NCBI GenBank assembly: GCA_900319465.1 | Contig: ONOL01000004.1 | Span: 20,233-84,232 of the forward strand | Direction: 5' to 3' | Origin: an uncultured Eubacteriales bacterium | Lineage (GTDB): Bacteria; Bacillota; Clostridia; Oscillospirales; Oscillospiraceae | DNA length: 64,000 bases | Part shown: positions 39,336 through 52,939 of the stretch, one piece after another | Position numbering within the stretch: position 1 is the stretch's first letter | Layout: each line of letters starts with the position of its first letter | Translations under genes and position numbers: made by a program | Notes under the pieces: model-generated | Database searches by the model: none | Seen by the model: only the letters and a program-made list of their open reading frames with translations | Told to the model about the DNA's origin: nothing

Positions 39336-39365
39336 TTGACCAAAATCGCGCCCGTATGTTAGAAT
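39336..39365 (+). promoter_or_regulatory. sigma-A promoter of the pur operon
   Basis: TTGACC (39336-39341), 18-nt spacer, TAGAAT (39360-39365), starting 34 bp after the guaB stop. No good terminator separates guaB from it, so the two operons may also be joined by read-through. Confidence 0.75.
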
Positions 39366-39370
39366 CCCCG

Positions 39371-39484
39371 TGTCTCCCGCAACTGACGGATTTTCGTGGA
39401 GCACCACGGAGGAACGGGAGAATGGTACATGCCGACCGTCTGGGCGCACAAGCTTTTCGGAGTTCGTGCGCCCTGTTGCTTTTT
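39371..39484 (+). promoter_or_regulatory. ZTP riboswitch (pfl motif) with terminator platform
   Basis: Aptamer features: GACGG (39385-39389) pairs with CCGTC (39436-39440); a small hairpin GTGG-AGCA-CCAC (39396-39407) is followed by GGAGGAACGG; and the conserved CCGACCGTCTGGGC closes it (39432-39445). The expression platform is a terminator: GGGCGCAC (39442-39449) with GTGCGCCC (39466-39473) then TGTTGCTTTTT. The 5' arm includes the aptamer GGGC, so ligand binding would block the terminator. ZTP/ZMP signals shortage of 10-formyl-THF, fitting the pur-fhs operon below. Confidence 0.92.
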
Positions 39485-39494
39485 CGGAGGTTTT

Positions 39495-39983
39495 ATGAAA
39501 AAAGTCGGAATCATCATGGGAAGCGACAGCGACCTTCCCGTGATCCAAAAAGCGGCGTCCATCCTGAAGGAACTGGATGTTCCCTTTGAAACCCACGTCT
39601 ACTCCGCCCACCGCACGCCCGCCCAGGCCCGCGATTTCGCCGCGGCCGCGCGGGAGAAGGGCTTCGGCGTGCTGATCTGCGCGGCGGGCATGGCCGCCCA
39701 TCTGGCGGGCGCCGTCGCCGCGAACACCACGCTGCCCGTCATCGGCATTCCCTGCAAGGGTCCCGCGCTGGAGGGCCTCGACGCGCTGCTGTCCACCGTG
39801 CAGATGCCCTCGGGTATCCCGGTCGCAACGGTCGGCGTCAACGGCGGCGCCAACGCCGCGCTGCTGGCCGCCCAGATCCTCGCCGTGGAGGACGCGGCGC
39901 TCGCCGGAAAGCTCGCCGCCAAACGCGCCGCCGACGCGGAAGCCGTGCTCGCAAAGGACGCCGGCATCGCAGAGCGCCTGTAA
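39495..39983 (+). CDS. purE: N5-carboxyaminoimidazole ribonucleotide mutase / AIR carboxylase
   Basis: 162 residues from ATG 39495, preceded by CGGAGG; the frame opens upstream inside the riboswitch. [11 protein letters not shown] binds phosphate, [10 protein letters not shown] holds the catalytic His, and [13 protein letters not shown] closes the site. purK is not in the window, so this PurE may use CO2 directly or PurK may be elsewhere. First gene of the pur operon. Confidence 0.95.
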
Positions 39984-40098: not shown

Positions 40099-40785
40099 AT
40101 GGAAAAGAAGCTCGTTTACACCGGAAAGACCAAGAACGTTTACGCCCTCGACAACGGCAACTACCTGCTCAAGTTCAAAGACGACTGCACCGGCAAAGAC
40201 GGCGTGTTCGATCCCGGCGAGAATTCCGTCGGTCTGACCATCGACGGCGTGGGCGACGTGAACCTGCGCATGTCCCTCTACTTCTTTGAGAAGATCAACG
40301 CCGCGGGCATCCGCACCCACTTTGTCTCCGCCGATCTGAAGGACACCACGATGGAAGTCCTGCCCGCCAAGGTCTTCGGCAAGGGCCTGGAAGTCATCTG
40401 CCGCCACAAGGCCGTCGGCTCCTTCCTGCGCCGTTACAGCGACTACATCGAAGAGGGCGCCGATCTGCCCGCCTACGTGGAAATGACCTTCAAAAACGAC
40501 GCCAAGGGCGATCCCCTGGTCACGAAGGACGGCCTGATCGTGCTCGGCGTGATGACCGGCGAGCAGTACGACGAGATCAAGGACATGACCCAGAAGATCA
40601 CGCAGATCGTCGCCGACGAGATGAAGGCTCGCGGCCTCGTGCTCTACGACATCAAGTTCGAGTACGGCTACGACGCCGAGGGCAAGGTCATGCTCATCGA
40701 CGAGATCGCCTCCGGCAACATGCGCGTTTACAAGGACGGCAAGTACATCGACCCGATGACCCTGTCCGAGCTGTTCTTCGCGTAA
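40099..40785 (+). CDS. purC: phosphoribosylaminoimidazole-succinocarboxamide synthase
   Basis: 228 residues from ATG 40099 (AAAGGAG upstream). Joins CAIR and aspartate to SAICAR. Family blocks: [46 protein letters not shown] region and [13 protein letters not shown]. Length is standard. Its TAA stop shares one base with the purF ATG. Confidence 0.95.
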
Positions 40786-42209
40786 TGGGCGGATTCTTCG
40801 GCGCGGTCTCGCACCGCGATGTGGTGCTGGACGTGTTCTTCGGGACGGACTACCACAGCCACCTCGGCACCCGGAACGCCGGCATGGCGATCTGGAGCCG
40901 CGAGGGCGGCTGCAAGCGGCAGATCCATTCCATCGCGAACACGCCCTTCCGCACCAAATTTGAGAAAGACCTGGACGAGTTTTCCGGAACCGTCGGCATC
41001 GGCTGCATCTCGGATTCCGACCCCCAGCCGCTGCTGGTCCGCTCCCACCTCGGGCTTTACGCCATCACCACCGTGGGGCAGATCAACAACGCCGAGGAGC
41101 TGGTCAACACTTACTTTGCCGACCACGGGCATCAGTTCATGGCCATGAGCTCCGGCAAGGTCAACATGACCGAGCTGGTCGCCGCCCTCATCAACGAGGG
41201 CGAGGATCTCGCCTCCGGCATCCTCCACGCGCAGCGCCTCATCGACGGCTCCATGACCATCCTGCTGATGACCGACGCGGGCGATATCATCGCCGCCCGC
41301 GACCGCTTCGGCCGGCTCCCGGTGCTGGTCGGCCGGGACGCGGAGGGCTACTGCGTGGCCTTCGAGTCCTTCGCTTACCAGAAGCTGGGCTACGAGACCG
41401 TCTACGAGCTCGGGCCTGCGGAGATCCTGCGCGTCACTGCCGACGGCTGGGACGTGCTCTCCCCCGCCGGGAAGGACATGAAGATCTGCGCCTTTCTCTG
41501 GACCTATTACGGCTACCCCAACTCCAACTACGAGGGCGTGAATGTCGAGATCATGCGCATGCGCAACGGCGAGATCATGGCGCGCGACGAGATGAAGCGC
41601 GGCAGCCTTCCCAAGGTGGATTTCGTGGCCGGCGTCCCCGACTCCGGCGTGCCCCACGCCATCGGCTACGCCAACCGCAGCGGCAAGCCCTTCGCCCGCC
41701 CCTTCGTCAAGTATACCCCTACCTGGCCCCGTTCCTTCATGCCCTCCAACCAGGCCATGCGGGATCAGGTCGCCAAGATGAAGCAGATCCCCGTACCTGA
41801 GCTGATCGAGGGCAAAAAGCTCCTCTTCGTGGACGACTCCATCGTCCGCGGCACCCAACTGCAGAGTACGGTGGATTTCCTCTACGAGTCCGGCGCGGCG
41901 GAGGTGCATATGCGCTCGGCCTGCCCGCCGATCATGTACGCCTGCAAATATCTGAACTTTTCCCGCAACAACTCCGATATGGACCTGATCGCCCGCCGCA
42001 CGATCCGCGAGCTGGAGGGCGGCGAGGGGCAGGAACACCTCGACGAATATGCCGATTCCGAAACCGAGCGCGGCCAGTGCCTGCTGCACGCCATCTGTGA
42101 GAAGCTTGGCTTTGATTCGCTGGGCTACCAGTCGCTGGACGGGCTGCTCGAGGCGATCGGCATCGACCGGGACAAGATCTGCACCTACTGCTGGAACGGA
42201 AAGGAATAA
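40785..42209 (+). CDS. purF: amidophosphoribosyltransferase-like PurF lacking the glutaminase active site
   Basis: 474 residues. The phosphoribosyltransferase half is intact, with PRPP motif LLFVDDSIVRGTQL (346-359). Fe-S ligand cysteines of the B. subtilis type are in place: C235 (MKICAFLW), C387 (YACKYLNF), C466 and C469 (CTYC). The N-terminal Ntn-glutaminase half keeps its fold but not its chemistry: Cys1 is Gly (MGGFFG instead of MCGIFG), the Arg of GHVRYST is Ser76 (GCISDSD), and the oxyanion Asn of HNG is Val97 (TTVGQI). It would need free ammonia or another glutaminase. GGC for TGC is one base change at Cys1, but the other losses show long-standing decay. Confidence 0.93.
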   Translation: MGGFFGAVSHRDVVLDVFFGTDYHSHLGTRNAGMAIWSREGGCKRQIHSIANTPFRTKFEKDLDEFSGTVGIGCISDSDPQPLLVRSHLGLYAITTVGQINNAEELVNTYFADHGHQFMAMSSGKVNMTELVAALINEGEDLASGILHAQRLIDGSMTILLMTDAGDIIAARDRFGRLPVLVGRDAEGYCVAFESFAYQKLGYETVYELGPAEILRVTADGWDVLSPAGKDMKICAFLWTYYGYPNSNYEGVNVEIMRMRNGEIMARDEMKRGSLPKVDFVAGVPDSGVPHAIGYANRSGKPFARPFVKYTPTWPRSFMPSNQAMRDQVAKMKQIPVPELIEGKKLLFVDDSIVRGTQLQSTVDFLYESGAAEVHMRSACPPIMYACKYLNFSRNNSDMDLIARRTIRELEGGEGQEHLDEYADSETERGQCLLHAICEKLGFDSLGYQSLDGLLEAIGIDRDKICTYCWNGKE

Positions 42210-42213
42210 CACT

Positions 42214-43251
42214 ATGGAAAACTCCCACTCCGCGTCTTACGCCGCGGCCGGCGTCAACATCGAAGCCGGCTACGAGGGCGTGCGGCTGATGAAAAAACAC
42301 GTGGAGCGCACCTTTATCCCCGGCGTGGTATCCGGCATCGGCGGTTTCGGCGGCCTCTTCGCCCCGGAGCTTTCCGGCATGAAGGAGCCGATCCTGGTCT
42401 CCGGCACCGACGGGGTGGGCACCAAGCAGCGCATCGCCCAGCTCATGGACCGCCACGATACCGTCGGCATCGACTGCGTCGCCATGTGCGTCAACGACAT
42501 CATCTGCTGCGGCGCAAAGCCCCTGTTTTTCCTCGACTACATCGCCATCGGCCGGAACGATCCCGAAAAAGTGGCGGCGCTGGTCTCCGGCGTGGCCGAG
42601 GGCTGCGTGCGCGCCGGCTGCGCCCTCATCGGCGGGGAGACCGCCGAGCACCCCGGCACCATGCAGCCGGACGACTACGATCTGGCGGGCTTCTCCGTCG
42701 GGATCGTCGACAGGGAGAGGATCATCGACGCCTCCTCGATGCGCCCCGGCGACGCAGTGATCGCCCTGCCCTCCAGCGGCATCCACTCCAACGGCTATTC
42801 GCTGGTGCGCAAGGTCTTTGACGTGGAGCACGCCGACCTCGGGAAGCGCGTTCCGGAGCTCGGCTGCCCGCTGGGCGAGGCGCTGCTGACGCCGACCTGC
42901 ATCTACGTCAAGCCCGTCCTCGCCGCGCTCACGGCAAGCGAGGTGCACGGCGTGAGCCACATCACCGGCGGAGGCTTTTACGAGAACATCCCCCGCTCCG
43001 TGCCGGACGGGCTCTGCGCACGGATCGAAAAGGCCGCGGTCCGGACGCCCGCGATCTTCAAGCTGATCCGGGAGCAGGGAAAGATCCCCGAGCGCGACAT
43101 GTTCAACACCTTCAACATGGGCGTCGGCATGAGCCTCATCGTCTCGCGCGAGAGCGCAGACCGGGCGCTGGGCGCGCTGCGCGCCGAAGGGCTGGAGCCC
43201 TATATCATCGGCGAGATCGCGGAAGGCGGGGAGAAGATCGAGCTATGCTGA
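42214..43251 (+). CDS. purM: phosphoribosylformylglycinamidine cyclo-ligase (AIR synthetase)
   Basis: 345 residues from ATG 42214, 4 bp after purF; the longer open frame runs inside purF. Converts FGAM to AIR. Family blocks: SGTDGVGTKQRIA, ALIGGETAEHPGTM, LPSSGIHSNGYSLVRK and HITGGGFYENIPR. GGAAAGGAA acts as ribosome site. Normal length; overlaps the FNT gene by 7 bp. Confidence 0.96.
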   Translation: MENSHSASYAAAGVNIEAGYEGVRLMKKHVERTFIPGVVSGIGGFGGLFAPELSGMKEPILVSGTDGVGTKQRIAQLMDRHDTVGIDCVAMCVNDIICCGAKPLFFLDYIAIGRNDPEKVAALVSGVAEGCVRAGCALIGGETAEHPGTMQPDDYDLAGFSVGIVDRERIIDASSMRPGDAVIALPSSGIHSNGYSLVRKVFDVEHADLGKRVPELGCPLGEALLTPTCIYVKPVLAALTASEVHGVSHITGGGFYENIPRSVPDGLCARIEKAAVRTPAIFKLIREQGKIPERDMFNTFNMGVGMSLIVSRESADRALGALRAEGLEPYIIGEIAEGGEKIELC

Positions 43252-43856
43252 GAAGCTATCTGATCGACGGCGTTCTGGCGGGCGCGATGGTCTCCGTCGG
43301 CGGAGCCGTGCTGCTCTCCTGCGACAACCGCTATCTCGGCGCGTTTCTCTTCTGCATCGCGCTGCTGAGCATCTGCTGGTTCGGCTTCAACCTGTACACG
43401 GGCAAGGTCGGCTTCCTGTACCGCGATCACAGCCGCGCAGCGCTCGCAGAGGCTTTCTGCGGTCTTCTCGGCAACGCCCTTGGAACGCTGTTTTTCGGCG
43501 CGCTGATCGCGCTTGCCCTTCCGCAGCTCAGGGACGCCGCCCTCGCCGCCTGTGAGAAACGCCTGACGCAGCTTCCGCTCCAGACCCTCCTGCGCGGCTG
43601 CTTCTGCGGGCTGCTCATGTATACGGCGGTCTGGGTCTACCGGGAGAAGAAGACGCCGCTCGGCATCCTCTTCTGCATCCCCGTGTTCATCCTCGCCGGC
43701 TTTGAGCATTCCATCGCCGATATGTTCTACTTCGCGCTGGCCGGGCTCTACCGGCTGCGGAGCCTTTGGTTCTTGCTTCTCGTCGTGCTGGGCAACAGCC
43801 TGGGCGGCCTGTTCATCCCCTGCCTGCAGGCGCTGAAAGGAGCTCGCCATGGATAA
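43245..43856 (+). CDS. formate/nitrite transporter (FNT) family channel
   Basis: 203 residues, shorter than FocA (about 280) but with all six membrane helices expected for a FNT monomer. The family motif GFEHSIADMFYFAL in TM5 contains the central His environment (usual form G-x-EHSVANM). It lies inside the purine operon, overlapping purM and purN by a few bases, and 7 kb upstream of fhs. Formate is the most likely substrate because the operon consumes 10-formyl-THF. This is inference from context. Confidence 0.8.
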   Translation: MLRSYLIDGVLAGAMVSVGGAVLLSCDNRYLGAFLFCIALLSICWFGFNLYTGKVGFLYRDHSRAALAEAFCGLLGNALGTLFFGALIALALPQLRDAALAACEKRLTQLPLQTLLRGCFCGLLMYTAVWVYREKKTPLGILFCIPVFILAGFEHSIADMFYFALAGLYRLRSLWFLLLVVLGNSLGGLFIPCLQALKGARHG

Positions 43857-44469
43857 AACGAAAATCGCCGTGCTGGTCTCCGGCGGCGGCACCAATCTGC
43901 AGGCGCTCATCGACGCCGAAGCGGGCGGCATTCTCAAAAGCGGCGAGATCGTTCTTGTGATTGCGAACAAGCCCGGCGCTTACGCGCTCACGCGGGCGGA
44001 AAAGGCCGGCATCCCCGCGCTCACGATCACGAAAAAAGCCTGCGGCGGACAGGAGGCCTTTGAGGACGCGCTGATCGACGCGATGGCGTCCCACGGCGTC
44101 GAGCTGGTCGTGCTGGCCGGCTTCATGAGCATTTTGTCCGAGCGCTTTATCAGGCATTATGTTAACCGCATCCTCAACGTCCACCCCTCGCTGATCCCCT
44201 CCTTCTGCGGCAAGGGCTTTTACGGCCTGAAGGTGCATGAGGCGGCGCTCGCCTACGGCGTCAAGGTCACAGGCGCCACGGTACACTTTGTCAACGAGAT
44301 CCCCGACGGCGGCCGCATCCTCTTGCAGAAGGCCGTCAGCATCCTCCCCGGCGACACGCCCGAGACCCTGCAGCGCCGGGTCATGGAGCAGGCTGAGTGG
44401 ATCATCCTCCCCGAGGCGGCCGAGCTGGTCTCCTCTCAAATTCAGATGGAAAAGGAGCAACAACAATGA
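43849..44469 (+). CDS. purN: phosphoribosylglycinamide formyltransferase
   Basis: 206 residues. Transfers formyl from 10-formyl-THF to GAR. IAVLVSGGGTNLQALID binds phosphate; ILNVHPSLIPSF and GATVHFVNEIPDGG hold the catalytic Asn-His-Asp. AAAGGAG lies upstream. It overlaps the FNT gene by 8 bp and the IMP cyclohydrolase gene by 4 bp. Confidence 0.95.
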   Translation: MDKTKIAVLVSGGGTNLQALIDAEAGGILKSGEIVLVIANKPGAYALTRAEKAGIPALTITKKACGGQEAFEDALIDAMASHGVELVVLAGFMSILSERFIRHYVNRILNVHPSLIPSFCGKGFYGLKVHEAALAYGVKVTGATVHFVNEIPDGGRILLQKAVSILPGDTPETLQRRVMEQAEWIILPEAAELVSSQIQMEKEQQQ

Positions 44470-45098
44470 CGGACTTTCTCGCGTTTCTGAAAAGCAATCC
44501 CTACCCCGGCAGAGGCATCGCCGTGGGCAAAGACCGGGTCTATTACTTCATCATGGGCCGCAGCGAAAACAGCCGCAACCGCATCTTTTCCCTGACCGAC
44601 GACGGCATCCGCACCGAAGCCTTTGACGCCTCGAAGCTCGTCGATCCCAGCCTTATCATCTACCACCCCGTCCGCGCCATGGGGGGCGATCTGATCGTCA
44701 CCAACGGCAACCAGACCGACACCATCCGCGACATGGGCGATTTCCGCGCCGCCCTCGCCACGCGCGCGTACGAGCCGGACGAACCCAACTGGACGCCCCG
44801 CATCTCCGCCATCTGCCATGCCGACGGGAGCTTCGAGCTCTCGATCCTCAAGTGCGTGGACGGCCGCTGCCTGCGCTGCTTTTACAGCTACGAGGGCTGC
44901 GACGAGGGCAAGGGCTATTTCATCAGCACCTACCGGGGGGACGGTTCCCCCCTGCCCAGCTTCTCCGGCGAGCCGCTCTGCATCGACATGCCGGAGCCCG
45001 AAGAGGTCTGGGCCGCTCTCAATTGCGACAACAAGGTTTCACTCTATGCCAACGTAAAGGGCGAAGTGAAGCTTTTCAATAAACATCTGGGAGATTAA
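44466..45098 (+). CDS. IMP cyclohydrolase, PurO-like
   Basis: 210 residues from ATG 44466 (AAAGGAG upstream, ATGA overlap with purN). It belongs to the PurO-type cyclohydrolase fold (PF07826), seen in NPYPGRGIAVG, YYFIMGRSENSRNRIF, and VTNGNQTDTI, not to the PurH N-terminal fold. It would close FAICAR to IMP. The formyltransferase that makes FAICAR is the next gene, so the two together replace bifunctional PurH. Confidence 0.88.
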   Translation: MTDFLAFLKSNPYPGRGIAVGKDRVYYFIMGRSENSRNRIFSLTDDGIRTEAFDASKLVDPSLIIYHPVRAMGGDLIVTNGNQTDTIRDMGDFRAALATRAYEPDEPNWTPRISAICHADGSFELSILKCVDGRCLRCFYSYEGCDEGKGYFISTYRGDGSPLPSFSGEPLCIDMPEPEEVWAALNCDNKVSLYANVKGEVKLFNKHLGD

Positions 45099-45101
45099 AT
45101 C

Positions 45102-46280
45102 ATGAAAGAATTTGAACTCAAATACGGCTGCAACCCCAACCAGAAGCCCGCGAAGATCTTCATGAAGGACGGCGGCGAGCTGCCCGTCACGGTTTTGAAC
45201 GGCCGTCCCGGCTATATCAACTTCCTCGACGCCCTCAACTCCTGGCAGCTCGTCAAGGAGCTCAAAGAGGCGACCGGCCTTCCCTCCGCCGCCTCCTTCA
45301 AGCACGTCTCCCCCGCCGGCGCGGCCGTGGGTCTGCCGCTGAGCGACGTGGACAGACGCATCTACTTCGTCGACGACGACGCCGAGCTCTCCCCCATCGC
45401 CTGCGCCTACATCCGCGCCCGCGGCGCCGACCGGCTCTGCTCCTACGGCGACTGGGCCGCGCTCAGCGACGTCTGCGACGCCGCCACCGCCGCCTATCTC
45501 AAGGACGAGGTCTCCGACGGCGTGATCGCCCCGGGCTACACCGAGCAGGCGCTCGCCATCCTCAAGACCAAGAAGAAGGGCAACTACAACGTCGTGCAGA
45601 TCGACCCCGACTACGTCCCCGCGGCGCAGGAGCAGAAGGACGTGTTCGGCGTGACCTTCGAGCAGGGCCACAACAATTTCAAAATCGACGAGGCCCTGCT
45701 GCAAAACATCGTGACCGAGAATAAAGCGCTGCCCGAGCAGGCGAAGATCGACATGATCGTCGCGCTCATCACGCTCAAATACACCCAGTCCAACTCCGTC
45801 TGCTACGTCAAGGACGGCCAGGCCATCGGCGTCGGCGCGGGCCAGCAGAGCCGCATCCACTGCACCCGTCTCGCCGGCCAGAAGGCCGACAACTGGTACC
45901 TGCGCCAGCACCCGAAGGTGCTCGGACTGCAGTTTGTGGACGGTATCCGCCGCCCCGACCGCGATAACGCCATCGACGTCTACACCTCCGACGAATACGA
46001 CGACGTGCTGCGCGACGGCGAGTGGCAGCGGGTGTTCAAGGTCAGGCCCGAAGTGCTGACTGCGGAAGAGAAAAAGGCGTGGATCGCCACCCAGCGCGGT
46101 GTGACCTGCGGCTCCGACGCCTTCTTCCCCTTCGGCGACAACGTCGAGCGCGCCCGCAAGTCCGGCGTGCAGTACATCGCCGAGCCCGGCGGCTCCATCC
46201 GTGACGACCACGTGATCGCAACCGCCGACAAATACGGAATGGTCATGGCCTTCACCGGCATGCGCCTGTTCCACCATTAA
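45102..46280 (+). CDS. AICAR formyltransferase, stand-alone
   Basis: 392 residues, lacking the cyclohydrolase domain of PurH. It begins directly in the transformylase fold (ELKYGCNPNQKPA) and has the catalytic block ASFKHVSPAGAAVG with the Lys-His pair, SNSVCYVKDGQAIGVGAGQQSR and TCGSDAFFPFGDN. It uses 10-formyl-THF, the metabolite whose shortage the upstream ZTP riboswitch senses. Starts 3 bp after the cyclohydrolase. Confidence 0.93.
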   Translation: MKEFELKYGCNPNQKPAKIFMKDGGELPVTVLNGRPGYINFLDALNSWQLVKELKEATGLPSAASFKHVSPAGAAVGLPLSDVDRRIYFVDDDAELSPIACAYIRARGADRLCSYGDWAALSDVCDAATAAYLKDEVSDGVIAPGYTEQALAILKTKKKGNYNVVQIDPDYVPAAQEQKDVFGVTFEQGHNNFKIDEALLQNIVTENKALPEQAKIDMIVALITLKYTQSNSVCYVKDGQAIGVGAGQQSRIHCTRLAGQKADNWYLRQHPKVLGLQFVDGIRRPDRDNAIDVYTSDEYDDVLRDGEWQRVFKVRPEVLTAEEKKAWIATQRGVTCGSDAFFPFGDNVERARKSGVQYIAEPGGSIRDDHVIATADKYGMVMAFTGMRLFHH

Positions 46281-46290
46281 GGAGAACGAC

Positions 46291-47562
46291 ATGAAGGTTC
46301 TGGTGGTTGGCGGAGGCGGGCGTGAGCACGCCGTCGTCAAGAAACTGAAAACGAACCCGGAAATCAGCGAGATCTTTGTTCTGCCCGGCAACGGCGGCAT
46401 CGCAAGGGACGCGACCTGCGTCCCCATCGCCGCGAAGGACATCGCGTCCATCGTGAGCTTTGCCGAAGCAAACGCCGTCGACTACGCCGTGGTCACCCCG
46501 GACGACCCGCTGGTGCTCGGCTGCGTGGACGCGCTCGAGGAGATCGGCGTGCCCTGCTTCGGGCCACGCGCCGCCGCCGCGCACATCGAGGGCAGCAAGG
46601 TCTTTGCCAAGGCGCTCATGAAGAAGTACGGCATCCCCACCGCCTCGTACGAGAGCTTTGACGACATGGACAAGGCCCTCGCCTACCTCGACGCCGCCCC
46701 CGTCCCCACGGTCGTCAAGGCCGACGGGCTCGCGCTCGGCAAGGGCGTCATCATCGCCCGCACCCGCGAGGAGGCGAAGCAGGCCGTGACGGAGATGATG
46801 CGCGATCACAAGTTCGGCAGGAGCGGCGAGCAGATCGTGATCGAGGAATTCCTTGAGGGGCCGGAGGTCTCCGTCCTCGCCTTCACCGACGGGAAGACGC
46901 TCGTGCCCATGGTCTCCTCCATGGACCACAAGCGCGCCGGCGACCGCGATACCGGTCTCAACACCGGCGGCATGGGCACCGTCGCCCCGAACCCCTATTA
47001 TACCGAAGCCGTGGCGCAGCGCTGCATGGAGGAGATCTTCCTCCCCACTGTCAAAGCCATGAACGCCGAGGGCCGCCCCTTCAAGGGCTGCCTGTATTTC
47101 GGCCTGATGCTCACGAAGGACGGCCCGAAGGTCATCGAGTACAACTGCCGCTTCGGCGACCCGGAGACACAGGTGGTGCTGCCGCTGCTGGAGAGCGATC
47201 TGTTCACTGTCATGCGCGCCGTGACCGAGGAGCGTCTCGCGGACGTGGAAGTAAAGTTTGCCGGCAGGTCCGCCTGCTGCGTGATCCTCGCCTCGAAGGG
47301 CTACCCCGAGCACTACGAGAAGGGCTTCCCGCTTGAGATCCCCGAGGCGATCGCCGATCAGGTCTTTGTGGCGGGCGCCGCGCGGAAGGACGGCGCGCTC
47401 GTCACGAACGGCGGCCGCGTCGTCGGCTGTACCGCCGTGGCGGACACCCTGCCGCAGGCTGTTGAGGGCGCGTACCGGCTCGCCTCTCAGGTCAGGTTCG
47501 ACAATTCGTACTGCCGCAGCGACATCGGACAGCGCGCCCTGCTCGCGCTTGGGGAGGCTTGA
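46291..47562 (+). CDS. purD: phosphoribosylamine-glycine ligase
   Basis: 423 residues. ATP-grasp enzyme that joins glycine to phosphoribosylamine. It starts KVLVVGGGGREHAVVKKL; PTVVKADGLALGKGV and YNCRFGDPETQ are ATP/metal sites. TAAGGAG lies upstream. It follows the formyltransferase by 10 bp and precedes purL by 1 bp. Confidence 0.96.
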   Translation: MKVLVVGGGGREHAVVKKLKTNPEISEIFVLPGNGGIARDATCVPIAAKDIASIVSFAEANAVDYAVVTPDDPLVLGCVDALEEIGVPCFGPRAAAAHIEGSKVFAKALMKKYGIPTASYESFDDMDKALAYLDAAPVPTVVKADGLALGKGVIIARTREEAKQAVTEMMRDHKFGRSGEQIVIEEFLEGPEVSVLAFTDGKTLVPMVSSMDHKRAGDRDTGLNTGGMGTVAPNPYYTEAVAQRCMEEIFLPTVKAMNAEGRPFKGCLYFGLMLTKDGPKVIEYNCRFGDPETQVVLPLLESDLFTVMRAVTEERLADVEVKFAGRSACCVILASKGYPEHYEKGFPLEIPEAIADQVFVAGAARKDGALVTNGGRVVGCTAVADTLPQAVEGAYRLASQVRFDNSYCRSDIGQRALLALGEA

Positions 47563-47563
47563 A

Positions 47564-50500
47564 ATGGTATACAGAGTCTATGTGGAAAAAAAGCCGGGGC
47601 TTGACAACGAGGCCCGCGCGCTGCTGAACGACGCGAGAGGCCTGCTCGGCATCGAGGGACTCGAGCGCGTGCGCCTTTTCAACCGCTACGACGCGGAGAA
47701 CATCAGCCCGGAGCTCTTCGACTACGCGATCCGCACCGTCTTTTCCGAGCCCCAGCTCGATCTCGCGAGCGCGGAGCTCGACTGCGGGGACGCGGCGGTC
47801 TTCGCCGTGGAGTACCTGCCCGGCCAGTTTGACCAGCGCGCCGACTCCGCCGCCCAGTGCATCCAGATCATCTCCCAGGGCGAGCGCCCGCTGATCCGCT
47901 CCGCCAAGGTCTACGCGCTCTACGGAACGCTCTCCGACGAGAACCTTGCGGAGATCAGGAAATACGTCATCAACCCCGTGGAGGCCAGAGAGGCGTCGCT
48001 GACGCTGCCCGAGACCCTGGCTGCGGATTACGCCATTCCGACCTCCGTCGCGACCCTTACGGGCTTCAACGCCCTCAGCCGGACGGGTCTGGAGGATTTC
48101 GTCCGGGACTACGGTCTTGCCATGGACGCGGACGACATCGCCTTCTGCCAGCAGTATTTCCGCAGCGAAGGCCGCGAGCCCACCATCACCGAGATCCGCG
48201 TGCTGGACACCTACTGGTCCGACCACTGCCGCCACACCACCTTCAACACCGTCATTGACGAGGTGCGCTTGGAAGCTCCCCTGCTGGAGAAGGCCTATCA
48301 GGACTATCTCCGGACGCGCGAGGCGCTCGGCCGCTCCAAGCCTGTGTGCCTCATGGATCTGGGCACGATCGCCGCGAAGGCGCTCAAGAAAGCCGGAAAG
48401 CTCGACAAGCTCGACGAGAGCGAGGAGATCAACGCCTGCACCGTCAAGATCGACGTCACGGTCGACGGCAGGACCGAGCCGTGGCTGCTGCTGTTTAAAA
48501 ACGAGACCCACAACCACCCCACCGAGATCGAACCCTTCGGCGGCGCGGCCACCTGCATCGGCGGCGCGATCCGCGATCCGCTCTCCGGCCGCTCCTACGT
48601 CTACGGCGCGATGCGCGTCACCGGCGCGGCCGATCCTCTGGTCCCGGTCAGCGAGACCATCCCCGGCAAGCTCCCCCAGCGTAAGCTGGTCACCACCGCC
48701 GCGGCGGGCTATTCCTCCTACGGCAACCAGATCGGCCTTGCCACCGGCATCGTCGACGAGCTCTACCACCCCGGCTACGCGGCCAAGCGCATGGAGATCG
48801 GCGCGGTCATCGCCGCGGCTCCCGCGGAGAACGTGCGCCGTGAAGTCCCCGCTCCCGGCGACGTGGTCATTCTTCTCGGCGGCAGCACCGGGCGCGACGG
48901 TATCGGCGGCGCCACCGGCTCCTCCAAGGCCCACAACGCCCACTCCGTGGAGACCTGCGGGGCCGAGGTGCAAAAGGGCAACGCCCCCGAGGAGCGCAAG
49001 CTCCAGCGCCTGTTCCGAAACGGCGACGCCTGCCGGATGATCAAGCGCTGCAACGACTTCGGCGCGGGCGGCGTGTCCGTCGCGATCGGCGAGCTGGCCG
49101 ACGGCCTTGCCATCGACCTCAACGCCGTCCCCAAAAAATACGAAGGCCTGGACGGCACGGAGCTTGCCATCAGCGAAAGCCAGGAGCGCATGGCCGTCGT
49201 CGTCGAGGAAAAGGACGTGGACGCCTTCCTCGCGCTTGCGGCCGAGGAGAACCTGCAGGCCTGTCCCGTGGCCGTCGTGCAGGCGGAGCCCCGGCTCGTC
49301 ATGCGCTGGAACGGCAGGACGATCGTGGACCTGAGCCGCGCTTTTCTCGATACCAACGGCGCCGCGAAGCACATCACCGCCGTCGCCGCCGCGCCCGTCG
49401 ACTACGACTGCAAAATCACCGGCGGCTTTGCCGAGAACATCCGAGTCATGGCCGCCGACCTCAACTGCTGCTCCAAGCGCGGGCTGAGCGAGCGCTTCGA
49501 CTCCACCATCGGTGCGGGCAGCGTGCTGATGCCCTTCGGCGGCAGGCGGCAGCACACGCCGGTGCAGGCCATGGTGCAGAAGATCTCGGTGGAGAAAAAG
49601 CATACCGAGGACTGCTCCCTGATGGCCTGGGGCTACAATCCCTTCATCAGCGACAAGAGCCCCTATCACGGCGCCTATCTCGCCGTCGTGGAATCCGTCT
49701 GCAAGCTGATCGCCACAGGCGCTGCGTTTGAGGACGTCTATCTGAGCTTTCAGGAATACTTCGAGCGGCTGGGCAAGGACCCCGTAAGCTGGGGCAAGCC
49801 CCTCGCCGCGCTGCTGGGCGCGTTTGAGGCGCAGATGGGCCTCGGCGTCGCCGCCATCGGCGGCAAGGACTCCATGAGCGGTTCGTTCGAGAACATCCAC
49901 GTCCCCCCCACGCTCTGCTCCTTTGCCGTTACTACCGCGAAGACCGGCGATATCGTCTCCCCTGAGTTCAAGGCGGCGGGCCACAGGCTGATCCGCATCG
50001 CCCCGGAGAAGGACGAGAGCGGCCTTCCCGGAGCGGACTCCCTCATCCGCGTCTTTGCTCAGGTCACCGGACTGCTGCGCGCCGGCAAGGCCTTCGCCTG
50101 CTACACCCCCGGTCTCGGCGGCGTCAGCGAGGCGGTCATGAAGATGGCCTTCGGAAACGGCTTCGGCTTCCGCTTTTCGGAGGAGCTGAGCAGGGAGCAG
50201 CTCTTCGGTTACGATTACGGCGCTTTCCTGCTTGAGGTGGGTGCCGACACCCCCGGCATGTGCATCGGCACGATCACGGACGACGGCGCCTTCACGCAGG
50301 GCGCGGAGTCCGTTGACGCCGACGAGCTGCTCGCGATCTACGAAAACAAGCTCGAGAGCGTCTATACCTGCAACATCCCGACGCCGGCAGGGCCTGTGGA
50401 GACCTTCTCTTATGCGGCGAAGAGCCGTCCCGTCCCCGCCGTCAAGACCGCGAGGCCGCGCGTGCTGATCCCCGCCTTTCCCGGCACCAACTGCGAATAC

Positions 50501-51250
50501 GACAGCGCCAAGGCCGTCCGGGACGCGGGCGCGGAGCCGGAGATCCTTGTGGTCAACAATCTCAGCGCCGACGGCATCGCCCGCAGCGTGGAGCGCTTCG
50601 CCGAACGGCTCAAAGAGTCCCAGATGATCTTCATCCCCGGCGGCTTCTCCGGCGGCGACGAGCCGGACGGCTCCGGCAAGTTCATCACGGCCTTCTTCCG
50701 CGCCGACGCGGTCAAAGAGGGCGTGGCGGCGCTGCTTGAGCGGCGCGACGGCCTGATGTGCGGCATCTGCAACGGCTTCCAGGCCCTGATCAAGCTCGGC
50801 CTCGTGCCCTTCGGCAAAATCATCGACACGGACGAGAGCTGCCCGACCCTGACCTTCAACACCATCGCGCGCCACCAGAGCCGCATCGTGCGCACCCGCA
50901 TCGCCTCCAACAAATCCCCCTGGCTCGCGCTGACCGAGGTCGGCGAGATTTACAGCGTCCCCATCTCCCACGGCGAGGGTCGCTTCCTCGCGAGCGAGGA
51001 GACGGTCCGCCGCCTTGCGGCGAACGGCCAGATCGCCACGCAGTACGTGGATCTCGACGGGGCGGCCAGCATGGACGTGCACTTCAATCCCAACGGCTCG
51101 CTGTACGCGATCGAGGGCATCACCTCCCCGGACGGCCGCGTCTTCGGCAAGATGGGGCATTCCGAGCGCATCGGCAGCAATCTGTACAAGAACGTTCCCG
51201 GCAATTACGACATCCGCATGTTTGAAGCAGCGGTCAAATATTTCCGTTAA
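47564..51250 (+). CDS. purL: phosphoribosylformylglycinamidine synthase, single-chain
   Basis: 1228 residues from ATG 47564 (GGGAGG upstream). Converts FGAR to FGAM. It has an N-terminal PurS-like region (1-150), two AIRS-type catalytic repeats (FKNETHNHPTEIEPFGGAAT, then GGRDSMSG-like GGKDSMSGS), and a C-terminal class I glutaminase from about 965 with Cys in CGICNGFQAL and His in PISHGEGRF. The glutaminase is complete, in contrast to PurF. The long single chain replaces the PurSQL set common in Firmicutes. Confidence 0.96.
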   Translation: MVYRVYVEKKPGLDNEARALLNDARGLLGIEGLERVRLFNRYDAENISPELFDYAIRTVFSEPQLDLASAELDCGDAAVFAVEYLPGQFDQRADSAAQCIQIISQGERPLIRSAKVYALYGTLSDENLAEIRKYVINPVEAREASLTLPETLAADYAIPTSVATLTGFNALSRTGLEDFVRDYGLAMDADDIAFCQQYFRSEGREPTITEIRVLDTYWSDHCRHTTFNTVIDEVRLEAPLLEKAYQDYLRTREALGRSKPVCLMDLGTIAAKALKKAGKLDKLDESEEINACTVKIDVTVDGRTEPWLLLFKNETHNHPTEIEPFGGAATCIGGAIRDPLSGRSYVYGAMRVTGAADPLVPVSETIPGKLPQRKLVTTAAAGYSSYGNQIGLATGIVDELYHPGYAAKRMEIGAVIAAAPAENVRREVPAPGDVVILLGGSTGRDGIGGATGSSKAHNAHSVETCGAEVQKGNAPEERKLQRLFRNGDACRMIKRCNDFGAGGVSVAIGELADGLAIDLNAVPKKYEGLDGTELAISESQERMAVVVEEKDVDAFLALAAEENLQACPVAVVQAEPRLVMRWNGRTIVDLSRAFLDTNGAAKHITAVAAAPVDYDCKITGGFAENIRVMAADLNCCSKRGLSERFDSTIGAGSVLMPFGGRRQHTPVQAMVQKISVEKKHTEDCSLMAWGYNPFISDKSPYHGAYLAVVESVCKLIATGAAFEDVYLSFQEYFERLGKDPVSWGKPLAALLGAFEAQMGLGVAAIGGKDSMSGSFENIHVPPTLCSFAVTTAKTGDIVSPEFKAAGHRLIRIAPEKDESGLPGADSLIRVFAQVTGLLRAGKAFACYTPGLGGVSEAVMKMAFGNGFGFRFSEELSREQLFGYDYGAFLLEVGADTPGMCIGTITDDGAFTQGAESVDADELLAIYENKLESVYTCNIPTPAGPVETFSYAAKSRPVPAVKTARPRVLIPAFPGTNCEYDSAKAVRDAGAEPEILVVNNLSADGIARSVERFAERLKESQMIFIPGGFSGGDEPDGSGKFITAFFRADAVKEGVAALLERRDGLMCGICNGFQALIKLGLVPFGKIIDTDESCPTLTFNTIARHQSRIVRTRIASNKSPWLALTEVGEIYSVPISHGEGRFLASEETVRRLAANGQIATQYVDLDGAASMDVHFNPNGSLYAIEGITSPDGRVFGKMGHSERIGSNLYKNVPGNYDIRMFEAAVKYFR

Positions 51251-51262
51251 AGGAGACGCATC

Positions 51263-52939
51263 ATGGCTTACAAAACCGATATCGAGATCGCCCAGGAATG
51301 CAGCATGCAGCCCATCACCGAGATCGCGGCGCGGGCGCACGTTGCCGAACGCTATCTGGAGCAGTACGGCCGCTGGAAGGCCAAGGTCGATCCCGCCCTG
51401 CTGCGTGAGACCGACCGCAAAGACGGCAGGCTCATCCTTGTGACCGCCATCACGCCCACCCCGGCCGGCGAGGGCAAGACCACCACCACGATCGGCCTCG
51501 CCGACGGTCTTCGGCGCATCGGCAAGGACGTTGTCGTCGCACTGCGCGAGCCCTCCCTCGGCCCTGTGTTCGGCATCAAGGGCGGAGCGGCCGGCGGCGG
51601 TTACGCGCAGGTCGTGCCCATGGAGGACATCAACCTCCACTTTACCGGCGACTTCCACGCCATCGGCGCTGCCAACAACCTGCTGGCCGCCATGCTCGAC
51701 AATCACATCCAGCAGGGCAACGCCCTGAACATCGACCCCCGAAAGATCACCTGGAAGCGCTGCGTGGACATGAACGACCGCCAGCTTCGCTTCGTGGTGG
51801 ACGGTCTCGGCGGCAAGGCCAACGGCACGCCGCGCGAGGACGGCTTCGACATCACGGTCGCAAGCGAGATCATGGCCGTTTTCTGCCTCTCCTCCTCCAT
51901 CACCGATCTCAAGGAGCGCCTCGGGCGCATCATCGTGGGCTACACCTACGATGACAAGCCCGTCACCGCCGGGGACCTCAAGGCCGTCGGCGCCATGGCG
52001 GCGCTCTTGAAGGACGCGCTCAAGCCCAATCTGGTGCAGACGCTCGAGGGCACGCCCGCCTTCGTGCACGGCGGCCCCTTCGCCAACATCGCACACGGCT
52101 GCAACAGCGTGATGGCCACCCGCATGGCCCTGAAAATGGGCGATTACACCGTGACCGAGGCAGGCTTCGGCGCAGATCTCGGTGCGGAAAAGTTTCTGGA
52201 CATCAAGTGCCGCGCCGCCGGTCTCAAGCCCGACGCAGTCGTCATCGTCGCCACGGTGCGCGCGCTGAAGATGCACGGCGGCCTCCCGAAGAACGCGCTG
52301 GGCAGCGAGGATCTGGGTGCGCTCGAAAAGGGCATCCCCAACCTGCTGCGCCATGTGTCCAACATCAAGAACGTGTACGGTCTGCCCTGCGTCGTCGCGG
52401 TCAACCGCTTCCCCACCGACACGGACGGGGAAATCGATTTCATCATCCGCAAATGCCGCGCGCTCGGCGTGAACACCGTGCTCTCCACCGTCTGGGCGGA
52501 AGGCGGCAAGGGCGGCGAGGCGCTTGCGCGCGAGGTCGTGCGGCTCTGCGAGGAGGAAAAGGGCAACTTCCGCTTCTCTTACGAGCTCGACGGCAGCATT
52601 GAGGAAAAGATCCGTGCCGTCGTCACGCGCGTCTACGGCGGAAAAGACCTTGCGATCCTCCCCGCCGCGCAGAAGCAGATCGATCAGCTCACCGCGCTGG
52701 GCTTCGACCGGCTCCCGATCTGCGTGGCCAAGACCCAGTACAGCTTCTCCGACGATCCGCAAAAGCTCGGCGCTCCCGAGGGCTTCACCGTCACGGTCAA
52801 AAACGTGAAGGTCTCCGCGGGCGCAGGCTTCGTGGTGGTGCTGACCGGCGACATCATGACGATGCCGGGTCTCCCCCGCGTCCCCGCCGCCGAGAAGATC
52901 GACGTGGACGAGAACGGGCGCATCAGCGGCCTGTTCTGA
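51263..52939 (+). CDS. fhs: formate-tetrahydrofolate ligase
   Basis: 558 residues. Makes 10-formyl-THF from formate, THF and ATP. P-loop [14 protein letters not shown] (about 71), [18 protein letters not shown] region and [10 protein letters not shown] are family signatures. It ends the pur operon and feeds PurN and AICAR formyltransferase. AAAGGAG lies upstream; a strong terminator follows. Confidence 0.97.

Follow-up and report, generated by a model that had tools for sequence, protein, structure and literature searches.

The locus described here raises the question of how the first committed step of purine biosynthesis is served when the PurF-type protein encoded at the expected place carries no recognizable glutamine site. 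Among glutamine amidotransferases, PurF is a standard example of an enzyme with an ammonia tunnel, and in the canonical form ammonia is made at the Ntn site and used at the PRPP site. In the window, i.e., the whole stretch of 64,000 nucleotides that was analyzed, the gene in question encodes a protein starting with MGGFFG. The original prediction held that its glutaminase site has been erased and that phosphoribosylamine is formed either from free ammonia or with the help of a partner glutaminase. On the basis of sequence comparisons, the gene probably encodes an ammonia-dependent phosphoribosylamine synthase.

The two-domain PurF fold spans the full length of the window protein, placing it in the PurF superfamily, and the closest solved structures by sequence are those of Bacillus subtilis PurF. 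Upstream of position 40785 the reading frame continues for 165 codons without a stop, none of them ATG, GTG or TTG. With the NCBIfam purF model TIGR01134 the protein scores 177.5 bits, below the curated cut-off of 350, while Pfam GATase_7 matches with 31.9 bits (cut-off 25) and Pfam Pribosyltran with 21.6 bits, below its cut-off of 26.3. The protein is devoid of the N-terminal Cys, the glutamine-site residues and the TIGR01134 score of a glutamine-dependent PurF (EC 2.4.2.14). An identity as GlmS or AsnB was considered and rejected, both being encoded by separate genes in the window's genome with Cys1 intact.

Table 1. Features of the purine operon (positions are those of the window)
Feature	Position	Strand	Basis and remarks
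Sigma-70-like promoter match	39336..39365	+	just upstream of riboswitch; consensus match only, 10/12 positions
ZMP/ZTP riboswitch aptamer, upstream of purE	39369..39452	+	RF01750, 55.2 bits (gathering 39)
purE	39495..39983	+	ORF; name presumed, with support of operon position; start taken at MKKVGIIMG
purC	40099..40785	+	ORF, name presumed; stop overlaps PurF-like start by one base
Glutaminase-site-less PurF-family protein	40785..42209	+	474 aa, MGGFFG; proposed ammonia-dependent phosphoribosylamine synthase
Remodeled Ntn (class-II glutaminase-like) domain	40785..41474	+	residues 1-230; no Cys1, loop 73-80 deleted, Asn101 to Val, Asp127 to Ser
Phosphoribosyltransferase domain	41475..42206	+	residues 231-474; VDDSIVRGT 349-357; Fe-S cysteines 235, 387, 466, 469
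purM	42214..43251	+	Pfam AIRS and AIRS_C; TIGR00878 over cut-off in own genome
Formate/nitrite-transporter family protein	43245..43856	+	203 aa; PF01226
purN	43849..44469	+	ORF, name presumed
PurO-like IMP cyclohydrolase	44466..45098	+	PF07826; under NCBIfam purO cut-off
Stand-alone AICAR formyltransferase	45102..46280	+	NF005492, 722.3 bits (cut-off 415)
purD (consumer of phosphoribosylamine)	46291..47562	+	TIGR00877 over cut-off in own genome (G000:C56:66523-67773, the same gene)
purL, large type	47564..51250	+	TIGR01857, 1822.8 bits; GICNGFQ in translation
Formate-tetrahydrofolate ligase (fhs)	51263..52939	+	ORF, name presumed

The gene stands where purF would be expected in a tight, ZTP-riboswitch-led operon with the order purE-purC-[PurF-like]-purM-fnt-purN-purO-AICARFT-purD-purL-fhs (Table 1), in which the names purE, purC, purN and fhs are those that we presume to apply; what we take to be pyrimidine genes and guaB precede it. 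GICNGFQ in purL presumably represents the glutaminase Cys motif of that enzyme. Sigma-70-like sites number 5 in the region, with 1.9 expected. The formate/nitrite-transporter family gene between purM and purN is found in the window and in some relatives; its presence, along with that of fhs as the last gene, suggests that the operon provides formate for the formylation steps of purine synthesis. The fused bacterial PurH is replaced (44466-46280) by a PurO-like cyclohydrolase and a stand-alone AICAR formyltransferase, a pair common to many loci of relatives.

Open reading frames of the same family were obtained from 166 loci, and the 149 unique sequences left after removal of duplicates, the window's included, were aligned with 30 canonical PurF sequences (29 plus that of Escherichia coli, picked by a pattern requiring Cys1); residues of PurF are numbered as in the mature E. 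coli enzyme. The position of Cys1 is taken by Gly in 147 family sequences (Gly2 in the window protein), by Ala in one and by Ser in one, in line with the erasure of the nucleophile originally proposed. All 149 lack residues 73-80 of the glutamine loop, and with them Arg73, Tyr74 and Thr76. The loss of the Arg had thus been recognized correctly, whereas its reading as a substitution by Ser76 did not hold, the segment being deleted. Asn101, the oxyanion Asn of HNG that had likewise been reported as lost, is replaced in 149/149 sequences (Val in the window protein), Asp127 is retained in two (Ser in the window protein), and Arg26 is exchanged for Leu throughout, while Arg73, Asn101 and Asp127 are retained in all 30 canonical rows. 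We take Asn101, Asp127 and Arg26 to have their roles in the PurF glutamine site. According to excerpts of PMC7953260, the glutamine loop of PurF comprises R73-E84, Arg73 forms a salt bridge with a glutamine analog, and Tyr74 and Ile335 constitute one wall of the ammonia channel; in the family Tyr74 is absent and the position of Ile335 is occupied by Met (121 sequences), Thr (25) or Ile (3). As 149 unique sequences have in common that the loop is deleted and Asn101 replaced, an assembly or frameshift error is ruled out, and the original view that no one-base error is involved was justified.

A hidden glutaminase would require a relocated nucleophile, such as Cys74 acting together with the free amino group at Gly2. 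Cys74 is invariant in an alignment of 13 near relatives and present in 135 of the 149 family sequences, yet Ser, Val, Ile or Ala stands in its place in the other 14, by which it was ruled out as the relocated nucleophile, and the glutamine-binding residues have been lost throughout the family; we regard such an activity as highly improbable.

The phosphoribosyltransferase half presents a different picture, and here the original statement that the PRPP site and the four Fe-S cysteines are intact was borne out. DDSIVRG, T373 and the equivalents of Y258, K326, R332, F334, R342, K349 and R371 are invariant in 149/149 sequences, and the four Fe-S cysteines are found in 149, 149, 148 and 148 of them, both exceptions being gaps. 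Contacts of PurF with a PRPP analog are given in excerpts of PMC7953260 as R342, K349, R371, F334, T333 and position 258, and the flexible loop as K326-L350. Within the family Thr333 is changed to Ser; Lys344 is retained neither in the family nor in the canonical sequences. Two further changes are fixed: Thr374, the residue after the PRPP loop, is replaced by Gln (Q358 in the window protein), and NRYVG in the flexible loop is rewritten to TPTWP, with N327-R328-Y329 turned into T-P-T in nearly all sequences and KYTPTWPRSF (309-318) in the window protein. These fixed changes in the flexible loop and at T374 could point to a different nucleophile.

Phylogenetic analysis was restricted to a quick tree built from 54 rows of the family (33 from genomes with only this form, 21 from genomes with both forms) drawn from 122 genomes, plus 6 canonical rows, with G407 left out. 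The family splits from canonical PurF at 100% support, with a long-branch warning on the E. coli row. Mapped onto this tree, the label "no canonical PurF in genome" requires at least 14-15 changes, six of them forced by starred branches, which indicates that presence of the canonical gene changed repeatedly; the label is also more clustered than in most shuffles, 11 of 500 giving a value as low.

How often the family member is the sole PurF was surveyed in 391 genomes of the class, with up to four candidates per genome scored, any TIGR01134 match at E ≤ 1e-60 counted as canonical and a best match of at least 379 bits counted as family (canonical PurF matches to the family model start at about 190). 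The family was found in 122 of the 391 genomes, such that the homologs originally expected in other Clostridia are indeed widespread. By summation from reading of the genome match tables, canonical PurF is present as well in 70 of the 122, among them G259, whose canonical PurF consists of two weak pieces, and in these genomes the family member need not be the main enzyme. The remaining 52 gave no TIGR01134 match at E ≤ 1e-60, and in the 28 high-quality genomes among them no match over the TIGR01134 cut-off was found at E ≤ 0.001 with every candidate scored. Besides the family member, those 28 yielded only glutaminase-half matches of at most 119 bits in GlmS/AsnB-like frames of 363-729 aa. PurD is encoded in 47 and PurM in 46 of the 52 genomes without canonical PurF; for the 28 high-quality genomes the numbers are 27 and 27, with both in 26. 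One genome (G345) consists of one contig with a length of 1,671,491 bases; the gene lies there inside purE-C-[F]-M-N-O-AICARFT-D-L, and no canonical PurF was found. The window's own genome, in which a second canonical purF had been named as a possible objection, shows none in its 88.5% complete assembly, other class-II amidotransferase matches being GlmS and AsnB; at this completeness a second PurF could be absent from the assembly.

Surveys at lower rank gave comparable results. Among 101 genomes of the window's genus, 63 contain this form, 16 a canonical PurF over the cut-off and 9 both, the family being recognized by a score of about 149-180 bits rather than by alignment and the partial matches in G014 and G090 being left out. 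The 34 high-quality genomes of the genus comprise 21 with only this form, 4 with both, 2 with canonical PurF only and 7 with neither; the latter may be purine auxotrophs. Of 28 genomes behind named loci, 20 encode canonical PurF over the cut-off and 8 only this form, PurD being present in 8/8; the isolate Adlercreutzia equolifaciens DFI.6.87 (G506) belongs to these eight. In its family, which we take to be the Eggerthellaceae, canonical PurF passes the cut-off in 110 of 138 genomes, and a further 25 give matches only at the score of the glutaminase-site-less form (about 1e-44 to 1e-53), assigned by score alone except for G503 and G506, for which the locus is in hand. Growth of E. lenta in defined medium, reported in excerpts of PMC10234575, was considered as physiological proof and dropped because of those 110 genomes with canonical PurF.

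Several individual genomes deserve mention. Bacteroides ihuae is the one genome among 14 controls in which no PurF passes the TIGR01134 cut-off; its PurF may have diverged or belong to a different form. The three PurF-type genes of Frisingicoccus caecimuris (L067, G498) comprise one family member and two that pass the canonical cut-off, one of the latter matching only from model position 13. At L017 (G016) the canonical purF contains two in-frame stops, and the genome also carries the family by score; this canonical gene is possibly in the process of loss.

The distribution bears on the proposal that the protein is a non-enzymatic regulatory or structural subunit, e.g., a partner of canonical PurF. 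Co-occurrence with canonical PurF in 70/122 genomes, sometimes in tandem, would fit this proposal, as would the presence of both PurF and PurF' in each Crenarchaeon of Brown et al. (excerpts of PMC3261824). The invariance of the PRPP residues and the 28 high-quality genomes without canonical PurF, 26 of which have both PurD and PurM, argue against it, and we consider a role as a mere subunit unlikely. In the organisms with only this form, phosphoribosylamine might also be made otherwise, either non-enzymatically from ribose-5-phosphate and ammonia or via anthranilate phosphoribosyltransferase and an enamine, with the protein using PRPP differently or acting on another amine. Both PurF-free routes, the latter involving TrpD, have been described for Salmonella (excerpts of PMC3485032) and the flexible loop at the PRPP site is rewritten in a fixed way, but the purF-slot position in the window and many relatives would be hard to explain if the protein were unrelated to phosphoribosylamine. 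The chance that this holds appears slight.

In the window and many relatives the gene sits in the purF slot between purE/purC and purM, while in several genomes it stands alone, away from the pur operon and with no known riboswitch adjoining. In 15 genomes besides G345 from which the pur operon was examined, it runs from purE through purM and purN onward without a purF match and the family gene lies elsewhere (for G226 and G207 its surroundings were covered only in part). Tandem arrangements with canonical purF occur at L177, at about ten loci in a separate comparison and in G067 and G071. A ZTP riboswitch heads five of the seven pur-operon regions searched (L158, L163, L177, L193 and L199), three of which (L158, L163 and L177) hold the family gene; it was not found in the regions of L164 (G345) and L191 (G261). 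The ZTP-headed pur operons of L193 and L199 gave no purF match. Known riboswitches were also sought next to stand-alone copies, and the idea was discarded: seven loci gave no Rfam match, and eight further loci a single one, at a distance of more than 4 kb (L088).

The partner glutaminase of the original prediction could take the form of a separate subunit that binds to the inactive Ntn domain and supplies ammonia in trans. An Ntn domain with its own invariant motifs and under purifying selection is what would be expected of a docking domain, and the single-contig genome G345 is one of the two in which a GlsA-type glutaminase was found. Neighbor clustering of 80 named loci (L037-L116) speaks against such a subunit: clusters do recur, e.g., one in 20 loci and one in 10, but none of the ten cluster representatives scanned is a glutaminase; they comprise glycosyltransferases, PAP2, EamA, ABC transporter, methyltransferase, immunity-type and menaquinone-type proteins. 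By reading, no recurring extra gene was seen in the pur operons of the 15 genomes with the family gene elsewhere. GlsA-type glutaminase, the only type surveyed, occurs in 2 of 29 sole-form genomes and was not found in the window's; a dedicated GlsA was ruled out on these numbers, yet this glutaminase is patchy anyway, being present in 4 of 14 controls. A partner glutaminase has consequently lost ground, and we would assign docking in trans a low probability.

L069 and L102 are family copies on contigs labeled as Mailhella and Sutterella MAGs; purC and purM of L069 match those of the window at 80-87%, which makes misbinning or transfer likely. At L089, L094 and L097 (Adlercreutzia/Enterorhabdus) the stand-alone gene is preceded on the same strand by genes of the enoyl-CoA-hydratase and AMP-ligase/enolase types (Pfam scan of these neighbors for L097 only), which we presume to be menaquinone-like.

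The combination of an erased glutamine site, an intact PRPP site, no second PurF found in the genome and widespread homologs makes formation of phosphoribosylamine from free ammonia the simplest reading; as the gene occupies the purF slot, often as the only PurF, NH3 would most likely be the substrate. In the proposed mechanism, the phosphoribosyltransferase half would bind PRPP and exchange pyrophosphate for free NH3, and the phosphoribosylamine would pass to PurD, while the Ntn half would no longer hydrolyze glutamine and would be kept as a structural or regulatory domain. In the 70/122 genomes with two forms, the family member may serve as an ammonia-using isozyme beside the glutamine-using PurF, much like AsnA beside AsnB. 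A precedent is E. coli PurF without Cys1, which does not use glutamine and in which ammonia use remains (Mei and Zalkin, in excerpts of PMC3261824).

Plain ammonia use does not explain why the Ntn half has acquired near-invariant residues of its own, i.e., D22-Y-H-S-H-L-G-T29, R56 and I75-S-D77. This half is under purifying selection, with a median dN/dS of 0.177 compared to 0.114 for the phosphoribosyltransferase half (704 usable of 808 pairs, which overlap and are not independent), and its invariant residues suggest that it may do more than stay folded. A more far-reaching proposal, which we put forward tentatively and hold to be rather less likely than its opposite, is that lineages of gut Clostridia and Coriobacteriia gave up glutamine at the first committed purine step, with an ammonia-dependent synthase as sole enzyme whose Ntn half was rebuilt around these residues and co-evolved with the KYTPTWxRSF loop into a new ammonium-handling or -sensing site.

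Should purine synthesis in many gut bacteria begin with free ammonia, their purine supply would be tied directly to gut ammonium, glutamine-analog inhibitors should miss the first purine step, and annotations as well as metabolic models based on glutamine use would be incorrect for these organisms. The family would also provide a natural test of what follows from losing a channeled ammonia source and of the later use of an emptied domain.

Among known systems, canonical PurF (TIGR01134; B. subtilis 1ao0/1gph, E. coli 1ecf/1ecb) differs from the family in possessing Cys1, the glutamine loop, Asn101 and Asp127, and the family is further set apart by its rewritten flexible loop, by the score of 177.5 bits vs. 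a cut-off of 350 and by its position in a separate clade. A class-II glutaminase-like N domain, as in the window protein, is present in beta-lactam synthetase and carbapenam synthetase (1jgt, 1q15), in which the catalytic Cys is missing and the glutaminase domain is vestigial. A search of the open-access literature, by which subscription papers were mostly not covered, returned neither a description of a bacterial Cys-less PurF family nor biochemistry of the bacterial form. The E. coli Cys1 to Ala/Ser mutants, which according to excerpts of PMC3261824 lost glutamine use and kept ammonia use (Mei and Zalkin, 1989), are laboratory point mutants, whereas the loss in the family is natural, family-wide and accompanied by a deletion and a rewritten loop. 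PurF' of Crenarchaeota is likewise a PurF homolog without the nucleophile, encoded near pur genes, for which Brown et al. (2011) hypothesized ammonia-dependent activity (excerpts of PMC3261824). Compared by description only, PurF' is always found beside a normal PurF in the Crenarchaea studied there, while 52 of the 122 family-positive genomes show none. The family differs in its bacterial set, the family-wide loop deletion, the rewritten flexible loop and the many genomes in which this form is the sole PurF found.
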